DNA from: Marmoricola endophyticus
GTDB taxonomy: Bacteria; Actinomycetota; Actinomycetes; Propionibacteriales; Nocardioidaceae
Reading direction: 5' to 3'
NCBI RefSeq assembly: GCF_014644415.1
Contig: NZ_BMKQ01000001.1
Coordinates: forward strand, 2,497,984-2,561,983
DNA length: 64,000 nucleotides
Below, one piece after another: positions 33,374-51,949 of this stretch. A program made the translations under genes and the position numbers. The notes beneath the pieces are model-generated. The model was not told the origin of the DNA, did not search any database, and worked only from the letters and a program-made list of their open reading frames with translations. The stretch's first letter is position 1. Every line of letters begins with the position of its first letter.

Positions 33374-34720
33374 TCAGCCCACTGGCGACATCGCGGAGCG
33401 GGGTGCGGGGACGTCGCCACCGAGCTTGTTCATCGGCGTCTTGTAGGTCTCCTTGCCCAGGGCGATCGCGGTGCCCGAGATCAGGCAGATCACCACGACC
33501 ATCACCGAGACAGGAAGCCACCCGCTGGAGTCGCCGCCGGCGAGCGCCACGGCGATGGTGGGGCCGAAGCCGGCGAGGGCGAAGCCGAACTGGGTGCCGA
33601 CCGCCATGCCCGAGAGCCGGACCTCGGTCGGGAAGATCTCCGAGTACGTCACCGGCCACACCGCGTTCGTCATGGCGTAGAGGAAGGAGTTGAACACGAT
33701 GCCGGTGAGGAAGATCAGTGCGACGCTCCCCGACGTCACCGACCAGAAGAACAGCGACAGCGACACCGCGCACCCGACCTGGCCGGTGAGGAAGACCTTC
33801 TTGCGGCCGATCCGGTCCGAGAGGGCGCCGAAGTAGGGGATGGTGAAGATCGCGATGAAGTTGGAGACGATGGCCAGCCACAGCATCACGGTGCTGCTGA
33901 CGCCGATGCCGTACTCGTCGCTGGTGGCGAACGCGAGGCCGAAGACGCTGAACAGCGTCCCGGTCGAGGCGATGAAGGCCGCGAAGAAGACGCGGACCAC
34001 TCCACGCCAGTGGTCGCGGAAGAGCACCTTGAGCGGCACCGACGGCTTCTCGCCGCGTGCCTCCTCCGCCTCGAACTCCGGGGTCTCGTCCAGGCTGCGA
34101 CGGATCAGGTAGCCGACCACCACGACCACCGCACTCAGCCAGAACGGCACCCGCCAGCCCCAGCTGAGGAGCTGGTCCTCGGAGAGGAAGGTGGACAGCG
34201 GCAGCACGATCGCCGGCGCGACGACCTGGCCGCTGACCGTGCCGGACAGCGTCCAGCTGGTGTAGTAGCCGCGCCGGTCCTCGGGAGCGTGCTCGAAGGA
34301 CATCGAGTTGGCGCCGGCCTGCTCGCCGGACGCGGAGAGCCCCTGGAGGAGCCGCAGCAGGACCAGCAGGATCGGGGCCCACAGGCCGATCTGGCTGTAC
34401 GTCGGCAGGCAGCCGATGAGGAACGTCGAGGCCCCCATCATCACCAGTGTGCCGACCATGACGCTCTTGCGGCCGACCCGGTCACCGATGTGTCCGCTGA
34501 CGAACGAGCCGAACGGTCGCGCGACGTAGGCGACGCCGAAGGTGGCCAGCGACGCGAGCGTCCCGGTGGCCGGATCGGCGTCGTCGAAGAAGATCTTCGG
34601 GAAGACCAGCGCGGCGATCGTGCCGTACACGAAGAAGTCGTAGTACTCCAGCGTGCTGCCGATCCACGCGGCGATGGCGGCCTTGCGCGGCTGCTTCACG
34701 TAGGTGGTGGTGGTTGACAT
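33374..34720 (-). CDS. MFS transporter of the metabolite:H+ symporter (MHS) family
   Basis: 448 residues, 12 hydrophobic helices. MHS hallmarks: AAIAAWIGSTLEYYDFFVYGTIAALVFPKIFF at the N-terminus, RPFGSFVSGHIGDRVGRKSVMV between helices 2 and 3, and GLSASGEQAGANSMSFEHAPEDRRGYYTS. Members carry shikimate, citrate, alpha-ketoglutarate or other organic acids with protons. It follows the AroQ-like gene by 51 bases on the same strand, which suggests import of a quinate/shikimate-like compound. Confidence 0.92.
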   Translation of the reverse strand: MSTTTTYVKQPRKAAIAAWIGSTLEYYDFFVYGTIAALVFPKIFFDDADPATGTLASLATFGVAYVARPFGSFVSGHIGDRVGRKSVMVGTLVMMGASTFLIGCLPTYSQIGLWAPILLVLLRLLQGLSASGEQAGANSMSFEHAPEDRRGYYTSWTLSGTVSGQVVAPAIVLPLSTFLSEDQLLSWGWRVPFWLSAVVVVVGYLIRRSLDETPEFEAEEARGEKPSVPLKVLFRDHWRGVVRVFFAAFIASTGTLFSVFGLAFATSDEYGIGVSSTVMLWLAIVSNFIAIFTIPYFGALSDRIGRKKVFLTGQVGCAVSLSLFFWSVTSGSVALIFLTGIVFNSFLYAMTNAVWPVTYSEIFPTEVRLSGMAVGTQFGFALAGFGPTIAVALAGGDSSGWLPVSVMVVVICLISGTAIALGKETYKTPMNKLGGDVPAPRSAMSPVG

Positions 34721-34771: not shown

Positions 34772-35209
34772 CTAGTCCTGGCGGATCTTGTGGACGAGGG
34801 CCTCGAGTGCGCTGGAGTAGCCGCGCCACGCGGCTCCGGCGATGTAGACCGCGGCCGAGCCGGCGAAGATGTCCACCCGCTCCTTGGCGTCGATCGCGTG
34901 CCACTGCGAGATGTGCACGACGGCGAAGGGGAGCTCGGTGTCGCGCAGGGCGTCGAGCAGCGGGTAGCCGACCGAGCTGAACCCGGCCGGGTTGACGATC
35001 AGCGCGTCCAGCTCGTCCTGGTGCTCGTGGACGAAGTCCACGAGGACGTGCTCGGCGTTGGACTGCTGGTGGATGACCTCGACCCCGAGGGTCGCGGCGG
35101 TCTTCTCCACGTCGACGGTGATGTCGTCGAGGGTGTGGTGGCCGTACTTGGCCGGGTTGCGACGACCCAGCCGGTTCAGGTTCGACCCGTGAAGAACTGC
35201 GACCTTCAT
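34772..35209 (-). CDS. Type II 3-dehydroquinate dehydratase-like protein (divergent)
   Basis: 145 residues, the usual length. The N-terminal loop HGSNLNRLGRRNPAKYG keeps the Arg and Tyr of the family motif GPNLNLLGxREPxxYG. The conserved Asn is in NPAGFSSVGYPLLDAL, but the standard NPGAYTHTS is much changed. The late catalytic His is in HISQWHA (standard HLSNxxxR). It keeps the Asn/Tyr/His catalytic residues with an altered substrate pocket. In context (MHS symporter, GntR regulator, PQQ dehydrogenase) a catabolic role on a quinate-like compound is more likely than aromatic biosynthesis. Confidence 0.78.
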   Translation of the reverse strand: MKVAVLHGSNLNRLGRRNPAKYGHHTLDDITVDVEKTAATLGVEVIHQQSNAEHVLVDFVHEHQDELDALIVNPAGFSSVGYPLLDALRDTELPFAVVHISQWHAIDAKERVDIFAGSAAVYIAGAAWRGYSSALEALVHKIRQD

Positions 35210-35305: not shown

Positions 35306-35953
35306 ATGGCAGCGACCAAGTCCACGGAGGCCTACTCCCGCGTGCGCCGGGACATCGTCAGCGGGGTCATCCCGGCCAACGTCACCATCGACGAGGCCGA
35401 GCTGGGCCGTCGCTACGGACTGGGTCGGACCCCGATCCGCGAGGCGCTCAAGCAGCTGCGCAACGACCAGCTGCTGGTCTGGCCGGACCGCCGTTCCCCG
35501 TACGTCCCTGAGATCGGCGTCGGGCAGGTCCGTTCGCTCTACGAGGCGCGCACGATGTTCGAGACCCAGACCGCTGCGGTCGCCGCCGAGCGGATCACCG
35601 ACACCGAGGCAGAGTCCCTGGACCGCCTGGTCGCCGAGGAGGCGGACCTGGTGGCCCGGGGGATGCCGTACGAGGCGGTCGAGGTCGACCTGCAGTTCCA
35701 CCGCGGGGTCGCCGAGGCGACCGGCAACACGTTCCTCGTCGACGCCTCGACCAGGATCAACGTCTGCGCGCTGCGGATCTGGCACGACATGATCGCCACG
35801 GAGGAGATGCTCGCCACCGAGCACGCCGACATCGTCGAGGCGCTGCGCCGCCACGACGGCGACGGTGCGGCCGACGCCGCACGGCGGCACATCGCCAACG
35901 CCTACGAGCGCTACATCCGGATGACCTCGAGGATCCCCAGCCGTACGCGCTGA
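35306..35953 (+). CDS. GntR family regulator, FCD subfamily
   Basis: 215 residues from the ATG of MAATKSTEAYSRVRRDI; GGAG lies about 10 bases upstream. The winged helix is at about 10-70 (IDEAELGRRYGLGRTPIREALKQLRNDQLL). The FCD ligand domain follows with helical residues LYEARTMFETQTAAVAAERI, the metal-site pattern DLQFHRGVAEATGN and a late His (RRHIANAYERY). FCD regulators bind organic acids. It is divergent from the AroQ-like/MHS operon and convergent with the ThuA gene across a terminator hairpin. Confidence 0.92.
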   Translation: MAATKSTEAYSRVRRDIVSGVIPANVTIDEAELGRRYGLGRTPIREALKQLRNDQLLVWPDRRSPYVPEIGVGQVRSLYEARTMFETQTAAVAAERITDTEAESLDRLVAEEADLVARGMPYEAVEVDLQFHRGVAEATGNTFLVDASTRINVCALRIWHDMIATEEMLATEHADIVEALRRHDGDGAADAARRHIANAYERYIRMTSRIPSRTR

Positions 35954-35990: not shown

Positions 35991-36950
35991 TCAACGGCAG
36001 AAGGGCTCGAGCCCGGCGGTGGACTTGATCCCGCCGACGATCAGCCGCTGGAACTCTCGCACCCCCGTCTCGGTGGAGGCAGGGTCGAAGTCGGTCTGCC
36101 CGTGGCCGAGCGTGGTGAGGAAGGCGCGGCCACCGTCGTAGTACTGGCACCACGCGACCGGGTGCTTCGAGCCGTGGCCCGGGTGGTGGTAGTTGCCGGT
36201 CACCCCCTGGGCGAGCGTCCCCTCGTCGACGGCGGCGAGGAAGCGCACCTTGGACGGGTAGGGCACGAGGTTGTACCACTCGTCGGTGAAGGCCCACCGC
36301 TTCGGCAGGTCCCGCGTCGAGACGTCCTTGCGGTCGGTCGTCCGGACGACGCCGGCCTGGTCGTGGCCGTGGTCGTAGAAGTTCGCGCCGCCGAGCAGGC
36401 CCTCGTACCAGGGCCAGTTGTACTCGGTGCCGAACGCGTTGTGGATGCCGACGAAGCCGCCGCCGCCGCGCACGTACTGCCGCAGCGAGGTCTGGGCGGC
36501 GTCGTCGAGGGTGTCCCTGCTGGTGCTCAGGAAGACGACGGCGTTGTACTTGAAGAGGTTCGCCGGCGACGCGAGCTGCGTGATGTCCTCGGTCCAGTCG
36601 ACGCCGAACCCGTACTTCTTGCCCAGGGCGATCATGCCGTTCTGGGCGGCGTTGGCCTCGCTCAGCGTCGGGTCGAGGCCCGGCCCCAGCGCTGGCCCGA
36701 GGTTGGCGTGACGAGGCCCCGCCGTCCGGGTGTACAGCAGGACCTTGATGCCCTTGCTGGTGTCGAAGTTGCCCCAGTCGTGGTAGCACTTCGCGCTCGT
36801 TCCGCGGCACACGCCGTAGTCGGGGTCGCCCAGCTGCTTGGCGGCGGTCGACGGCTTCGACGCGGCCGTTGCCGCGCCGTACGTCGTCGTGCCCACCGCC
36901 GCGAGCGCCGCGGCCGCGAGCGCGACCAGCACTGTCTTCGTCCTGCTCAT
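35991..36950 (-). CDS. Secreted ThuA-domain protein
   Basis: 319 residues from the ATG of MSRTKTVLVALAAAALAAVG, which begins a signal peptide (cleavage probably after YGAATAA). The ThuA-like glutamine-amidotransferase-type fold is indicated by IKVLLYTRTAGPRHANLGP (strand 1), DITQLASPANLFKYNAVVFLSTSRDTLDDAAQTSLRQYVRGGGGFVGIHNAFGTEYNWPWYEGLLGG (core, ~120-186) and the late HPVAWCQYYDGGRAFLTTLGHG. ThuA relatives act on sugars such as trehalose or in carbohydrate oxidation. It is divergent from the PQQ dehydrogenase and probably processes a related sugar or polyol outside the cell. Confidence 0.82.
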   Translation of the reverse strand: MSRTKTVLVALAAAALAAVGTTTYGAATAASKPSTAAKQLGDPDYGVCRGTSAKCYHDWGNFDTSKGIKVLLYTRTAGPRHANLGPALGPGLDPTLSEANAAQNGMIALGKKYGFGVDWTEDITQLASPANLFKYNAVVFLSTSRDTLDDAAQTSLRQYVRGGGGFVGIHNAFGTEYNWPWYEGLLGGANFYDHGHDQAGVVRTTDRKDVSTRDLPKRWAFTDEWYNLVPYPSKVRFLAAVDEGTLAQGVTGNYHHPGHGSKHPVAWCQYYDGGRAFLTTLGHGQTDFDPASTETGVREFQRLIVGGIKSTAGLEPFCR

Positions 36951-37085
36951 GGTCGTTCCACCTCGTTGTCTCCGGCGCCGCCCGTGGGGCTGGTCAGGGA
37001 CCGCCGGCCGTACGCCGGTGCGACGGGCGGTGCTGGGTGACCGGGCCGGGTCCGTCTGGTGGGCCCTTGTGGTGATGCCGGTCAC

Positions 37086-37107
37086 ATCATATATTCCAAA
37101 TATACAC
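37086..37107. promoter_or_regulatory. Candidate GntR operator, site B
   Basis: CATATATTCCAAATATACAC in the 200-base spacer between the divergent ThuA and PQQ dehydrogenase genes. It contains the imperfect inverted repeat TATATT-CC-AAATATA and resembles site A at 35253. A shared regulator for both promoters is inferred. Confidence 0.55.
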
Positions 37108-37150
37108 AGCCGGCTGGGACTGTCCAGCCCCACTCACTCGGGAGGACCCC

Positions 37151-39307
37151 ATGCAACGCAGAACGTTCATCGCCGGATCGTCCACGGCGCTCGGTGGCGC
37201 CCTGGCGACGAGCCTGCTCGACCAGGCGCCCGCCCAGGCGGCGAGTCTGCTGGCCCCGGCCGCACAGCCCTCGGGTTTCGGTCCGGTGGGACCCGACTTC
37301 CCGAAGGTCTGCGGCGACTACGCCAACCAGAACCACTCCCCGCTCACCCAGATCACGCGGGGCAACGTCCGCCGCCTGGGCGGGGCGTGGCACCAGACGC
37401 TCGAGCCGGACAGCACCGGTCGCTCGCAGCAGAGCACCGTGGTCGCCGAGGCCGGCGTGCTGTACGTCCAGTCGGCCCAGCAGAACGTCTTCGCCGTCGA
37501 CGGTCGGACGGGAAGGATCAGGTGGAAGACCAACGTCGGCACCGAGCAGATCAACATGCGTGGTGTCGCGCTGGACGGCAAGCGGGTCTTCACCATCTCC
37601 GGTGACAACCACGTGTACGCCCTCGACAAGGCGACCGGGGAGGTGGTCTGGAAGACGCTCCTGCTGACCGAGGACGCCGGCGGCGACGACAACGACGGCT
37701 GCGATCCCGAGAACGGCCAGTGCGGTGGCTCGGTCGGCTCGCTCGCGGGCGCCGTCGTGCACTGGGACGGTCTGATCTACGTCGGGATGCAGGGCAGCAC
37801 GGCGGGCGCCAGAGGGCGGGCGTACGCCCTGGACGCGAAGACCGGGAAGCTGCGGTGGACCTTCTGGTCGGCCCCGGGACCCGGCGAGTTCGGTCACGAC
37901 ACCTGGGAGGGCGACAGCTGGAAGACCGGCGGCGCCGTCCCGTGGATCCACCCGGCGATCGACCCCGCTCTCGGGCTCGTCTACTGGACCTTCGGCAACC
38001 CCTACCCGCGGACGAACGGCGAGACCCGGGGAGGCGACAACCTGTTCGCCAACTGCATCGTCGCGCTCGACGCGAAGAGCGGAAAGCGCCAGTGGCACTT
38101 CCAGTCGGTCCATCACGACATCTGGGACTACGACAACGTGATGGCGCCGGTGCTGGCCGACGTCAAGGTCAAGGGTCGCAAGCGCAAGGTCGTCGTGTAC
38201 GGCAGCAAGGTCGGGAAGTACTTCATCCTGGACCGTCGCAACGGCGACCCGATCCAGGGCCTCACCGAGCGGTCGGTGCCGCAGGACCCCCGGCAGAAGA
38301 CCGCCAAGACGCAGCCGGAGCCGGAGGGGGAGTCCTTCCTCCCGCAGAAGCCGCGCTTCGACAACGCGACCCGGCCGGTGCCGTTCTACCCCGTCGGCGG
38401 GGTCTTCGACACCTTCTGGGACCGGGCGACCATCATCTTCCCGGGCGCGGGCGGTGGGGCCGACTGGGGCCACGTCTCGTTCAACCCGCACACCGGGTGG
38501 ATCTACGTCGGCTACGGCCTGATCAACTCCGCGTACTCCAACACCTTGGAGGGCCGGGTCAACACCGCTCGGCCGTACGGCGAGTACTTCGGCGGCGGCA
38601 TCGCCGCGGTCGACCCGCGGGACAACTCGGTGGTGTGGTCGATCGAGAAGGACTGGTCGCTGGCCCACGGCAACGGCATCCTCACCACGGGCGGACGCGT
38701 GATGTTCCAGGGTGGTCCGGACGGCGTGCTCCAGGCGATGGACGACGAGACCGCCGAGGTGCTCTGGGAGTTCCAGTGCGGGGCCGGGGTGCACACCAGC
38801 CCCATCGCGTACGAGGTCGACGGCGAGCAGTACCTCGCTGTCTTCGCCGGCGGGAACTCGCTGCCGTACCCCGACATCCCGAAGGGCTCGGAGCTGTGGG
38901 CCTTCAAGATCGGCGGGAAAGTCAAGCAGGCGGCCGCGCCGACGCCGCCCTCGAAACGCAACCAGATCCGCACCACGCCCGTCGACGCCGCCACCGCCGA
39001 CAACACGGTCACGATCGGTCGGATCTGGGACGCCGCGGCGAAGAAGCCCGGTGGCGAGGAGAACCTGGTGGCGCAGAACGCGATGTCGCCGCAGGTGATG
39101 ACGGTCCCGCGCGGCACGACCGTCACCTTCGTCAACCCGGCCGACAACAAGACTGCACACGGGGCCGTCGCGTTCTTCGACTACGAGTTCGACAGCGGCA
39201 CCCTGATGCCGGGCGACACCTTCACGCACACCTTCGACACGACCGGGGAGTTCTTCTACAACGATCCCGTCTACCCGCAGAACACCGGCAAGATCGTCGT
39301 CGTCTGA
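37151..39307 (+). CDS. Tat-exported PQQ-dependent dehydrogenase with C-terminal cupredoxin-like domain
   Basis: 718 residues. The twin-arginine signal MQRRTFIAGSS marks export after folding. Residues ~45-600 form an eight-bladed quinoprotein propeller with blade motifs such as GRIRWKT, ATGEVVWKT and TGKLRWTF; the active-site stretch is HHDIWDYDN (321-329), as in glucose/quinate-type enzymes. Residues ~605-718 read as a cupredoxin fold (TVTFVNPADNKTAHGA ... FDSGTLMPGDTFTHTFDTTGEFFY). His670 is kept, but the usual Cys, His and Met ligands appear as Asn704/Asp705, Tyr708 and Asn711. It oxidises an alcohol, sugar or polyol outside the cell. No PQQ synthesis genes are visible here. Confidence 0.85.
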   Translation: MQRRTFIAGSSTALGGALATSLLDQAPAQAASLLAPAAQPSGFGPVGPDFPKVCGDYANQNHSPLTQITRGNVRRLGGAWHQTLEPDSTGRSQQSTVVAEAGVLYVQSAQQNVFAVDGRTGRIRWKTNVGTEQINMRGVALDGKRVFTISGDNHVYALDKATGEVVWKTLLLTEDAGGDDNDGCDPENGQCGGSVGSLAGAVVHWDGLIYVGMQGSTAGARGRAYALDAKTGKLRWTFWSAPGPGEFGHDTWEGDSWKTGGAVPWIHPAIDPALGLVYWTFGNPYPRTNGETRGGDNLFANCIVALDAKSGKRQWHFQSVHHDIWDYDNVMAPVLADVKVKGRKRKVVVYGSKVGKYFILDRRNGDPIQGLTERSVPQDPRQKTAKTQPEPEGESFLPQKPRFDNATRPVPFYPVGGVFDTFWDRATIIFPGAGGGADWGHVSFNPHTGWIYVGYGLINSAYSNTLEGRVNTARPYGEYFGGGIAAVDPRDNSVVWSIEKDWSLAHGNGILTTGGRVMFQGGPDGVLQAMDDETAEVLWEFQCGAGVHTSPIAYEVDGEQYLAVFAGGNSLPYPDIPKGSELWAFKIGGKVKQAAAPTPPSKRNQIRTTPVDAATADNTVTIGRIWDAAAKKPGGEENLVAQNAMSPQVMTVPRGTTVTFVNPADNKTAHGAVAFFDYEFDSGTLMPGDTFTHTFDTTGEFFYNDPVYPQNTGKIVVV

Positions 39308-45607: not shown

Positions 45608-46732
45608 TCAGTCGTAGATGATGACGCCGCGGATGTTCTCCCCGTTGCGCATCGCCTCGTAGCCCTCGTTGACCTGGTCGAGGGTGTACGTCTGGGTGAT
45701 CAGCTCGTCCAGCTTGAGCTTGCCCTGGAGGTACATCTCGAACATCCGCGGGATGTCGGTGCGGATGTTGCACGAGCCGAAGAGCGAGCCGACGACCTGC
45801 TTCTCGGTCAGCGTCAGGTCGATCGCCGGGATGGAGATGCCCATCTCGGTCGAGGGGTGCAGGTTGGTGATCACCAGCCGTCCGCGCTGCCCGAGCAGGG
45901 CGTACGCCTTCCCGACGTCCTCCGAGGAGCCCAGGCCCATCGTCATGATGACCTTGTCGAAGCCGCGGCCCCAGTGCACCTCCTCGCCCTTCTCGGCCGC
46001 CTCCTCCATCGAGGAGTACGAGTGCGTCGCGCCCATCGAGGTCGCGGTCTCCCGCTTGAGCTCGACCGGGTCGATCGCCACGACGGCGCGGGCGCCGGCC
46101 ATCGCCGCCCCCTGGACCGCGTTCTGACCCAGCCCGCCGCAGCCGACGACGGCGACGTACTCGCCCGGGGACACGTCGGCGGTGTAGACCGCCGACCCCC
46201 AGCCGGTCAGGACGCCGCAGCCGAGCAGGCAGCCCTTGTCCAGCGGCCAGTCCTTGTCGACCTTCACCACCGAGGCCTGATTGACGACCGTGTGCTCGGC
46301 GAAGGTGCCGAGCAGGCACATCAGTCCGAGGTCCTCACCGTCCTTGCCGTGGTGGCGCGCGGTGCTGTCGGAGATCTGGAGGCCGGTGGGGTAGTGGGCG
46401 AGGGTCTCGCACTGGTTGGAGTGCCCGATGCTGCACATGTGGCAGTTGCCGCAGGCGGGGACGAAGCCGAAGACGACGTGGTCGCCCTCCTCGACGAAGG
46501 TCACGCCCTCGCCGACCTCCATCACGATCCCGGCGCCCTCGTGGCCGCCGATCACCGGAGCGCCGGGTACGACGCCGGCGAGGTCGCCGGTGTACACGTG
46601 CTCGTCGGAGTGGCACAACCCGGAGGCCACCATCTTCACCAGCACCTCGCCCTGCTTGGGCGGGTCGAGCTCGATCTCCTCGACGCTCCAGGGCTTCTCG
46701 ACTTCCCTGAGGATCGCTGCGCGTGTCTTCAT
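45608..46732 (-). CDS. NDMA-dependent alcohol dehydrogenase (zinc, class III type)
   Basis: 374 residues. Catalytic zinc ligands are in GLCHSDEHVYTG and GGHEGAGIVMEVG; structural zinc CGNCHMCSIGHSNQC (about 94-108). Nucleotide fold VVGCGGLGQNAVQGA. The overall reading matches the actinobacterial nicotinoprotein-like NDMA-dependent enzymes, which hold NAD tightly and use an artificial acceptor in vitro. It oxidises primary alcohols. It is followed within two bases by MoxR, and then a VWA gene. Confidence 0.92.
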   Translation of the reverse strand: MKTRAAILREVEKPWSVEEIELDPPKQGEVLVKMVASGLCHSDEHVYTGDLAGVVPGAPVIGGHEGAGIVMEVGEGVTFVEEGDHVVFGFVPACGNCHMCSIGHSNQCETLAHYPTGLQISDSTARHHGKDGEDLGLMCLLGTFAEHTVVNQASVVKVDKDWPLDKGCLLGCGVLTGWGSAVYTADVSPGEYVAVVGCGGLGQNAVQGAAMAGARAVVAIDPVELKRETATSMGATHSYSSMEEAAEKGEEVHWGRGFDKVIMTMGLGSSEDVGKAYALLGQRGRLVITNLHPSTEMGISIPAIDLTLTEKQVVGSLFGSCNIRTDIPRMFEMYLQGKLKLDELITQTYTLDQVNEGYEAMRNGENIRGVIIYD

Positions 46733-48083: not shown

Positions 48084-48460
48084 CGGCGCCGATCGTGGCG
48101 GCGTACCACCGGCTGGTGCTGACCCGTGCCCAGGCGTGGACCGTGCTGCTGGCCGCGGTCGCGTGCGACACCGGTGCCTCGCTGGCGGTCGCCGGGTCCC
48201 ACGGCCTGACCCGGGTGGTTCCCGCGGGGCTCGCGCTGCTCGGCTTCGCCCTGGCCAACGTGCTGCTGGCCAAGGTGGTCCAGGTGGTGCCGACCTCGAT
48301 CGCGTACGCCGTGGCGACGGGAGCGGGTGCCGTCGTCGTCGCCCTCGGCGGACGGCTGCTGCTCGGCGACGAGCTCGGCGCCGGGACCTGGGCGGGGATC
48401 GGCCTGGTCGTCGCGGGCACGGTCGTGCTCAACCGTGCCGACGCCCGGGCCGATCGCTAA
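48080..48460 (+). CDS. SMR family transporter subunit 2
   Basis: 126 residues from the GTG that overlaps subunit 1. Four hydrophobic helices with an N-terminal extension of about 15 residues. Core motif TSIAYAVATGAGAVVVALGGRLLLGDELGAGTWAGIGLVVAGTVVLN. The counterpart of EmrE Glu14 is Asp in ACDTGASLAVAGSHG. Paired unequal SMR proteins such as EbrAB or YkkCD act together; here only this subunit carries the membrane acid. Its last 4 bases overlap the convergent nuclease gene. Confidence 0.85.
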   Translation: MTAPIVAAYHRLVLTRAQAWTVLLAAVACDTGASLAVAGSHGLTRVVPAGLALLGFALANVLLAKVVQVVPTSIAYAVATGAGAVVVALGGRLLLGDELGAGTWAGIGLVVAGTVVLNRADARADR

Positions 48461-49500
48461 CGAGAGCGCCAGCGCGCCCGGTCGTCGCCGGGCTTGGTGG
48501 AGCAGCCCATCGGGGTGCCCGCGGTCGTGACGCCCGTGGCGCCGACCGGGGTGCAGAACGCGCCGGGGTGGACGACCTGGCTGCCCGACGAGGCACCCGT
48601 GTCGGCGAAGCCGCGGGGGGCGCTGTCGTCGCGGGTCTCGGTACGGGTCTCCGCCCGTGCCTCGGTGCGGACCCGGGTGCGGGGCAGCGGCGCGCGGGTG
48701 GGGGCCGCGCCCGGACCGGGGAGGGCCAGGTCGCCGCAGCGGCTGAGGACGCGGACCATCGCGTCGCGCTCGGCCGGGGTCACGCGCAGGCGGTACTTCT
48801 GCTTCACCGCGACCTGCCGGGCGACGTACGCGCAGCGGAAGGCCTTGTTCGCCGGCAGCCAGGTGGCCGTGTCGCCGTCCCCCTTCTGGCGGTTGGCGCT
48901 CGCGTCGACGGCCAGCAGCTCGAGCGGGTCGTTGGCCAGCGCGTACCGCTTGGCCGGCCCCCACTGCGCCGCGCCCGTCTGCCAGGCGTCGCCGAGGGCG
49001 ACGACGTGGTCGACGTCGAGCTCGCTGGCTCCGCCGACCTCGAACCGGATGTCCCGGCCGGTGTACGGGTCGGGTGCGCGGGTGCCGGCCAGCACCTTGC
49101 AGTCGTTCTTCATCACGCGGTCCACCAGGTCGCGTCGGAGCACGTCGTTGCGGGTGTCGCAGCCGTTGCGGTCGGCGTCGTACCAGGCCTGGCCGAAGGC
49201 GTCACGGTCGTAGCCGGTCATCGGTCCGCGGCCGCCGACGACGAGCGTCGACACGGCGGCAAGGGCGCTGCCCGGGCCGGGGGGCGGCGTCGCGGCGCTG
49301 GCGGGGGCGCTCGGCGCCGCCTCGGTCGCCGTGGCGGTGGACGGTGTCGGCGTCGACCCCGCGCGGTCCTCGGCGACCGTGATGCTGCCGGGTGCTCGTC
49401 CTTGCGAGGTGTGCTCGGTGGACGGCAGCGCCGCGCACCCGGTGAGGGTGCCGACGAGGGCCAGGGAGGCCAGCAGGCGGGCGGGGGCGGGGGAGGGCAC
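48457..49500 (-). CDS. Secreted HNH-type nuclease lipoprotein (GmrSD/DUF1524-like)
   Basis: 347 residues. A lipoprotein signal ends LVGTLTGC. A Thr/Ser/Pro/Ala-rich linker (about 28-85) precedes the nuclease domain. The DUF1524/HNH motif is ELDVDHVVALGDAW (His near 167) and NDPLELLAVDASANRQKGDGD. Cys-containing flanks (GCDTRNDVLRRDL, NDCKVLAG, FRCAYVARQ) match secreted actinobacterial HNH proteins. The C-terminal HPGAFCTPVGATGVTTAGTPMGC module is common in such exported proteins. Likely an extracellular DNase; convergent with the SMR pair. Confidence 0.85.
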   Translation of the reverse strand: MPSPAPARLLASLALVGTLTGCAALPSTEHTSQGRAPGSITVAEDRAGSTPTPSTATATEAAPSAPASAATPPPGPGSALAAVSTLVVGGRGPMTGYDRDAFGQAWYDADRNGCDTRNDVLRRDLVDRVMKNDCKVLAGTRAPDPYTGRDIRFEVGGASELDVDHVVALGDAWQTGAAQWGPAKRYALANDPLELLAVDASANRQKGDGDTATWLPANKAFRCAYVARQVAVKQKYRLRVTPAERDAMVRVLSRCGDLALPGPGAAPTRAPLPRTRVRTEARAETRTETRDDSAPRGFADTGASSGSQVVHPGAFCTPVGATGVTTAGTPMGCSTKPGDDRARWRSR

Positions 49501-50738: not shown

Positions 50739-51413
50739 GTGAGTCCGGCTCGTCGTACGTCCCTCGCCCTCGCCGCGGCCGTCGTCGCCGCGCTCGCACT
50801 CGTCGGGTGCGGGAGCACGACCCAGGAGTCCGGCTCGGGCGGCTCCGGTGGCGCCGCGACGGTGGAGGGCACGGGAGGCGGCAGCGTCGCGGACCGCGCG
50901 TTCTCGTCCGAGCCGACGCCGAAGCCGGCACCCGCGGGCACCGTCACGAACGCCGACGGCAGCACGTTCTCCTACCGGTCCGCGCCGAAGGGGAAGCTGA
51001 CGCTGGTCTACTTCGGCTACACCAACTGCCCCGACGTCTGCCCGACGACGATGGCCGACATCGCCTCCGCGCTGGCGAAGCTGCCCGACGACGTCGCCGA
51101 CAAGGTCGACGTCCAGCTCGTCAGCACGGACCCCCGCCGTGACACCGACCCGCAGATCACGCAGTGGCTGGCCGGGTTCGACCCGTCGTTCAAGGGCGGG
51201 CGGGCGCCGATCGACCAGGTGGTCACCCAGGCGCGGGCGTACGGCATCGGCATCTCCCCGCCGACCACCGTCAAGGGCGACTACGAGGTCACCCACGGCG
51301 CCCAGGTGCTCGCCCTGGCACCGGGCGGCGGCGAGGTCGGCTACTTCCGTGAGCTGGCCGGGCCCGAGGGCTACGCCGCCGTGCTGCCGGGACTGGTGAA
51401 GAAGTGGGCGTGA
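50739..51413 (+). CDS. SCO1/SenC-type copper chaperone lipoprotein
   Basis: 224 residues from GTG. A lipobox ALALVGC ends the signal peptide, followed by a Gly/Ser linker. The thioredoxin-like domain has the copper motif YFGYTNCPDVCPTTM with Cys97 and Cys101, and the conserved His in YEVTHGAQVLAL. SCO proteins deliver copper to the CuA centre of cytochrome c oxidase. It is first in a coupled three-gene set with PCuAC and CtaG. Confidence 0.93.
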   Translation: MSPARRTSLALAAAVVAALALVGCGSTTQESGSGGSGGAATVEGTGGGSVADRAFSSEPTPKPAPAGTVTNADGSTFSYRSAPKGKLTLVYFGYTNCPDVCPTTMADIASALAKLPDDVADKVDVQLVSTDPRRDTDPQITQWLAGFDPSFKGGRAPIDQVVTQARAYGIGISPPTTVKGDYEVTHGAQVLALAPGGGEVGYFRELAGPEGYAAVLPGLVKKWA

Positions 51414-51949
51414 GCCGCACGGTCGCGGCCGTCGCCTCGCTCGCGCTCCTGGCCGGTACGGCGGCGTGCGGCAGCGGTGACGACGCGCCCGCCGCCGACG
51501 ACCGCTACGGCCACGCCGCGACGGGCGACCTCGCGCTGACCGACGGCTGGGCCACCGAGGCGCCGAAGGCCCCGACGTCGTCGGGCGACGCCACGGACAT
51601 GGGGAGCACGATGAGCGCGGTGAGTGGCGCGTACTTCACCCTGACCAACGACGGCGACACCGACGACGCGCTCGTGGGCGTCTCGACCGACGCAGCGTCG
51701 CAGGCTCAGCTGCACACCACCGAGTCCACCGGGGGCGGCACCGGCGGCACGATGAAGCAGGTGGCCCGCGTCCCCGTCCCGGCCGGGAAGAGCACCCGGC
51801 TGACGGTGGGCGGCTACCACGTCATGCTGATCTCGCCGACCCGTGCGCTCAGCGCCGGGGACGAGGTGTCGCTGCGGCTCCGCTTCGCCTCCGGTGCGGA
51901 CCTCGACGTCACCGTGCCCGTCCTCGACCGCGCGGACCGACCGTCGTGA
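51410..51949 (+). CDS. Copper chaperone PCu(A)C lipoprotein
   Basis: 179 residues from a GTG that overlaps the SCO stop (GTGA); a GTG at 51404 is an alternative. Lipoprotein signal ending AGTAAC. The copper-binding pattern is HTTES ... MKQV ... GYHVML (His, Met, His-x-Met), with the family start ALTDGWATEAP. It moves Cu(I) to oxidase assembly together with SCO. It is coupled to the next gene by a GTGA overlap. Confidence 0.88.
   Translation: MSRTVAAVASLALLAGTAACGSGDDAPAADDRYGHAATGDLALTDGWATEAPKAPTSSGDATDMGSTMSAVSGAYFTLTNDGDTDDALVGVSTDAASQAQLHTTESTGGGTGGTMKQVARVPVPAGKSTRLTVGGYHVMLISPTRALSAGDEVSLRLRFASGADLDVTVPVLDRADRPS

Follow-up and report, generated by a model that had tools for sequence, protein, structure and literature searches.

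What is the role of a cupredoxin-like domain that has kept a single copper-ligand position, when it forms the tail of an exported quinoprotein dehydrogenase? The question is raised by a gene of Marmoricola endophyticus, which lies in the 64,000-nucleotide stretch of DNA analysed here (the window). The open reading frame and its key residues, His670 and the segment NDPVYPQN, were found as given in a preliminary description of this DNA (Table 1). A sequencing or frame artefact is ruled out, since a congener (G448) carries a gene 79–81% identical and many actinobacteria carry genes 65–73% identical, with the same ligand loss throughout; this conservation equally rules out a chance open reading frame. 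The propeller matches Pfam PF01011 with an E value of 3e-91. AlphaFold modelled the full-length protein with a mean pLDDT of 87 (<50 at residues 1–30), and the top Foldseek matches of the model were quinohemoprotein and methanol dehydrogenases, with E values reaching 4e-45. Export through the Tat pathway, as proposed earlier, is backed by an RRTFI motif typical of Tat signals but not by TIGR01409, which scored 11.7 bits against a cut-off of 16.7.

Table 1. The quinoprotein gene, its domains and residues of interest, and its neighbours in the window
Feature	Position	Strand	Basis or remark
MFS metabolite/H+ symporter close to shikimate transporters	33374..34720	-	TIGR00883 381 bits, NF007414 300 bits, both below cut-off
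Type II 3-dehydroquinate dehydratase-like protein, divergent, without His at the conserved His81 position	34772..35209	-	
GntR-family regulator	35318..35953	+	
Exported ThuA-family protein, conserved neighbour	35991..36953	-	PF06283, 6.7e-48
Shared intergenic region of the divergent ThuA and quinoprotein genes	36954..37150	.	
Quinoprotein-cupredoxin gene, 718 aa	37151..39307	+	ORF list, PF01011 match
Twin-arginine-type signal peptide (RRTFIAG...AQA), residues 1-31	37151..37243	+	sequence motif
PQQ-type propeller, residues ~45-590	37283..38920	+	PF01011, Foldseek
Thr217, replacing a metal-ligand Glu (Glu177 of methanol dehydrogenase)	37799..37801	+	alignment
Asn283, retained metal ligand (Asn261 of methanol dehydrogenase)	37997..37999	+	alignment
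Asp326 (catalytic base position; Asp303 of methanol dehydrogenase, Asp466 of Gcd) and Asp328	38126..38134	+	alignment
Lys353 (Arg331 of methanol dehydrogenase, Lys493 of Gcd)	38207..38209	+	alignment
Cupredoxin-like domain without type 1 copper ligands, residues ~605-718	38963..39304	+	profile searches, AlphaFold
His670, sole retained copper-ligand position	39158..39160	+	His 37/39, Arg 2/39
NDPVYPQN (704-711), with Asp705, Tyr708 and Asn711 at the Cys, His and Met places of blue copper proteins	39260..39283	+	

Searched as a single sequence, the tail scored weakly against Cupredoxin_1 (15–20 bits, under the cut-off of 27). We built a tail profile from 39 aligned family members and compared it with solved structures. 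The matches included copper nitrite reductase (9cck, E 9.3e-11), a blue copper protein (5fc9, E 1.9e-8), amicyanins (E about 1e-4 to 4e-5) and plastocyanin. An hhalign comparison with type 1 domains that are intact in distant relatives gave a probability of 99.2% and an E value of 6e-20 for the tail, and when folded alone by AlphaFold it was predicted to be β-rich, with a mean pLDDT of 94. A weak Pfam match to a PKD domain was dropped, since the family profile leads to cupredoxins and Cupredoxin_1 is matched by 32 of the 39 members. Judged by its sequence profiles and predicted strands, the tail is structurally a cupredoxin, as had been suggested, and very probably one without a copper site.

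In both of two alignments, Asp705 takes the place of the Cys ligand, Tyr708 that of the second His, and Asn711 that of Met/Gln. Type 1 cupredoxins such as amicyanin, plastocyanin and the C-terminal domain of 9cck thus share with the tail their profile, predicted fold and the position of His670, but their Cys, second His and Met ligands are replaced by Asp, Tyr and Asn. The His2-Cys(-Met/Gln) ligand set of type 1 copper is absent from the tail, where His670 alone is present, and the full set was found in none of the 39 aligned family members. The type 1 ligand loss noted earlier is a trait of the whole family. The idea that other residues form an intact type 1 site was rejected, because the two alignments agree and the positions concerned vary freely.

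Within the tail, Asn704, Asp705, Pro709 and Gly713 are invariant (39/39), and positions 706–708 and 711 vary freely across the family. Two further relatives, from the same order as the window (L117 and L118), have lost the ligand loop, which is shortened to NDGRPAGK (FFFNDGRPAGKVEV), with Asn-Asp kept. The invariance of Asn704-Asp705, the variation at 708 and 711, and this loss of the loop suggest that selection holds the Asn-Asp rather than a metal. Position 670 is Arg in two members (L042 and L078), both of which retain Asp705, and from this we infer a His-Asp or Arg-Asp pair (an ion pair) in the old copper cavity.

The preliminary description had allowed for a new mode of metal binding. In its most concrete form, the tail would hold copper, or some other metal, in a site that is not of type 1 and is built from His670, Asp705 and neighbouring residues, much like an azurin in which Cys is changed to Asp. 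Such azurin variants (C112D) have been described (PMC8915257), and the tail does carry an invariant Asp at the Cys-ligand position and His670 in 37/39 members. However, the second His ligand is missing, Arg replaces His670 in two relatives, 708 and 711 are free to vary, and L117 and L118 retain Asn-Asp after deletion of the ligand loop. A new metal site in the tail appears unlikely on these grounds, and the azurin-like version of it very improbable.

Cysteines in the tail are confined to two alignment columns, 671 and 706, whose residues directly follow the former His and Cys ligands, respectively. Both are present in 17/39 members and neither in 22/39; no member has one alone. In the propeller tree, the Cys-less state appears on two separate branches, the 17-row branch containing the window protein and a Nonomuraea/Micromonosporaceae branch, so joint change at the two positions has apparently occurred more than once. 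The same positions lie close to one another in blue copper proteins, where they tie the ligand loops together (e.g. Asn47 and Thr113 of azurin). Given this proximity and the covariation, a disulfide is the simplest reading. The data suggest that Cys671 and Cys706 form one in 17 members and that it was lost twice.

With its copper site gone, the tail would be unable to relay electrons through a metal. It more likely serves as a structural cap or as a surface for docking, in which Asn704-Asp705 would be the conserved element. This part of the earlier proposal is favoured over new metal binding. The former copper cavity would present the invariant Asn-Asp to a His or Arg, with a likely disulfide nearby in many relatives.

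Whether the propeller still works with pyrroloquinoline quinone (PQQ) bears on the function of the whole protein. Here residues were compared by alignment with methanol dehydrogenase, using equivalences that we take to be those established for the family. The catalytic Asp together with Arg/Lys, a general mark of PQQ enzymes, is present as Asp326 and Lys353, and Trp257 and Arg137 are also retained. The vicinal Cys-Cys disulfide that covers PQQ is absent, and Glu55 and Asn394 are replaced by Gln94 and Asp438. Quinohemoprotein and methanol/ethanol dehydrogenases (1kv9, 1kb0, PedH 6zcv; TIGR03075) have the same propeller fold, catalytic Asp and Asn261 equivalent, but the TIGR03075-type enzymes carry both the vicinal disulfide and Glu177, which the window protein lacks; its TIGR03075 score is 307.4 bits, below the cut-off of 480. 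The extra C-terminal domain of quinohemoproteins is likewise of another kind, a heme domain instead of a cupredoxin.

QuiA and Gcd (TIGR03074), in contrast, resemble the window protein in having the catalytic Asp and Lys and neither vicinal disulfide nor Glu177. E. coli Gcd is a genuine PQQ enzyme, so the absence of disulfide and Glu is compatible with PQQ. These two proteins nevertheless have an N-terminal membrane anchor and a different metal-ligand segment, whereas in the window protein a Tat-type signal runs straight into the propeller, and the TIGR03074 model for membrane quinate/glucose dehydrogenases scored 210.6 bits against a cut-off of 832.65.

The losses around the PQQ site could also mean that the propeller is empty: a binding or other non-redox protein without PQQ, in which both redox centres have disappeared. 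The equivalents of Glu177, Glu55, Asn394 and the vicinal disulfide are all gone, and the protein resembles the acidobacterial empty group of NCBIfam (acido-empty-quinoprotein group A, TIGR04528), though at 289 bits, below the cut-off of 650. Against this stand the retained Asp326, Asp328 and Lys353, the example of Gcd, and gene linkage. Genes for PqqB, PqqC and/or PqqE were found within about 8 kb in 14/38 relatives compared to 0/39 background loci (relatives share descent, so that this and the neighbour counts below are not independent), with PqqC and PqqE scoring above curated cut-offs. The relatives concerned include close ones with the same site changes as the window protein, and it is in this linkage that they differ from the TIGR04528 group, whose propeller is related. 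In five genomes (G161, G398, G400, G403 and G405) the quinoprotein gene encodes the sole full-length PF01011 protein found; GSDH-type proteins occur in all of these pqq-linked genomes and in the window genome as well.

The empty-propeller reading draws further support from the window genome, in which no PqqB, PqqC or PqqE was detected. The PqqC search was above cut-off in 21/48 genomes, and the PqqB search was positive in the one pqq-bearing genome included. A PqqE candidate in the window genome proved to be the mycofactocin maturase (623 bits). PqqC is missing likewise from about half of the relatives' genomes. The cofactor may, however, come from outside: many Gram-negatives with PQQ enzymes but without PQQ synthesis obtain PQQ externally (PMC12124388). 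An actinobacterium lacks the outer membrane that calls for an importer, which would leave an exported protein within reach of scavenged PQQ, and the window protein probably binds PQQ acquired in this way. Taken together, the evidence makes an empty propeller quite unlikely and a PQQ enzyme probable. The earlier label of PQQ dehydrogenase thus has the catalytic Asp and Lys and the pqq linkage of relatives in its favour, and the missing canonical residues and undetected host PqqB/PqqC/PqqE against it.

As separate observations, the window genome has mycofactocin-type genes and no detected PQQ synthesis genes. An NDMA-dependent alcohol dehydrogenase (above cut-off) is encoded in the window at 45608–46732 (-), with the mycofactocin maturase elsewhere in the genome (L020).

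Clues to the substrate come from gene context. The shikimate-transporter-like MFS gene and the type II dehydroquinase-like gene form an apparent operon near the quinoprotein gene. Among relatives, genes for AroQ, AroE or dehydroshikimate dehydratase (QsuB/QuiC) lie nearby in 19/38 cases versus 1/39 background loci, and a ThuA gene in 28/38 versus 0/39. In Acinetobacter, periplasmic QuiA converts quinate to dehydroquinate, which QuiB and QuiC then convert to protocatechuate (PMC4213383). The transporter, the dehydroquinase-like neighbour and the breakdown genes near relatives point to a quinate- or shikimate-like substrate. Our first choice, a tentative one held at slightly under even odds, is quinate, shikimate or a closely similar compound, which would place the window protein in the substrate class of QuiA. 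The window genome also holds a second quinate/shikimate set at about 1.22 Mb (L121, G000:C1:1212000-1228000), comprising QsuB/QuiC, AroE, a shikimate-type MFS transporter and a canonical AroQ.

The dehydroquinase-like protein reads NPAGFSS where typical enzymes read NPGAYTH, and versions without His at the His81 position also occur near the quinoprotein gene in L048, L054, L056 and L061. Given the absence of this His, the true product of the quinoprotein may differ from 3-dehydroquinate, and the neighbour may be a dehydratase that acts on a new substrate.

A PQQ enzyme acting on some other substrate must also be considered, namely one belonging to the pathway of the TPP enzyme, ALDH, class III CoA-transferase and citrate-synthase-like lyase encoded beside many relatives. 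A TPP enzyme is encoded near 24/38 relatives, more than have the quinate/shikimate breakdown genes, ALDH near 16/38, a citrate-synthase-like protein near 14/38 and a CoA-transferase near 13/38, compared to 0–1/39 in the background. In the window, however, none of these genes was found near the quinoprotein gene, which has the dehydroquinase-like and shikimate-type transporter genes instead. We regard this alternative as rather unlikely for the window protein. In L030:1490-7821 and other relatives, the set adjoining the quinoprotein gene consists of the TPP enzyme, ALDH, an IclR gene, the class III CoA-transferase and the citrate-synthase-like gene.

The reading that we prefer as a whole is that of an exported, PQQ-dependent quinoprotein dehydrogenase acting on quinate, shikimate or a closely related cyclitol acid and carrying a copper-less cupredoxin tail, to which we assign a probability of about 0.5. 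The propeller would oxidise its substrate at PQQ outside the membrane and pass the electrons from PQQ directly to an external carrier. Uptake of the product would then fall to the shikimate-type transporter, and the dehydroquinase-like enzyme would dehydrate it on the way towards protocatechuate.

Among the 148 genomes of a search for relatives, matches at E <1e-100 came only from that of the window, from a congener and from two members of a second family within the order. The gene is thus patchily distributed, with further occurrences dispersed among Actinomycetota, Burkholderiales and a few other groups. PQQ-dehydrogenase-type proteins with intact type 1 copper tails were found in Rokubacteria, Chloroflexi and Acetobacteraceae (L057:7986-9947, L058:2093-4033, L060:8001-10025, L062:7986-9959, L070:2887-4890). 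Their domain order is that of the window protein, but they keep the motif H...C-x-P-H-P-[WF]-[MQ] as well as the vicinal Cys-Cys and the Glu, all of which the window protein lacks, and in the propeller tree they branch apart from it, beside the heme-tailed enzymes. This separate branching leaves direct descent from intact copper-tailed enzymes unsupported, although the tail domains of the two groups may share one origin. In the open-access literature we found no paper on fusions of a PQQ dehydrogenase with an intact copper tail, nor anything on the present family under PQQ-cupredoxin or ThuA-PQQ enzymes.

If the preferred reading is true, it adds an exported, non-membrane quinoprotein of the quinate/shikimate class in actinobacteria and Burkholderiales. 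The tails would offer a natural series for metal loss in blue copper proteins, from the intact site of the distant relatives to the two-Cys site and the no-Cys site. The protein would also be a clear test case for whether PQQ enzymes other than the membrane-bound ones can function when the usual Glu metal ligand and disulfide are missing, and for whether Gram-positive hosts use PQQ without making it. A more far-reaching version, which we consider unlikely as stated, sets these quinoproteins apart as a family of their own, whose copper-based electron-relay domain became a metal-free docking or regulatory module. The copper site would have given way to a Cys-Cys disulfide, perhaps one that switches with redox state, in many members, and to a His-Asp pair on the branch that includes the window protein. 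The latter would be an extracellular actinobacterial PQQ dehydrogenase of the quinate/shikimate type whose host scavenges the cofactor.

Three minor observations concern the family and the rest of the window. In Microbacterium-type members (L005, L054, L056, L059, L061 and L072) the cupredoxin domain is followed by a further 100 or so residues. Genes for SCO1/SenC and PCuAC copper chaperones lie about 11 kb downstream, at 50739–51949 (+), and appear unrelated to the quinoprotein. The gene at 48457–49500 (-) encodes a putatively exported protein in which a nuclease-type GmrSD_C domain was recognised (PF07510, 1.5e-14).
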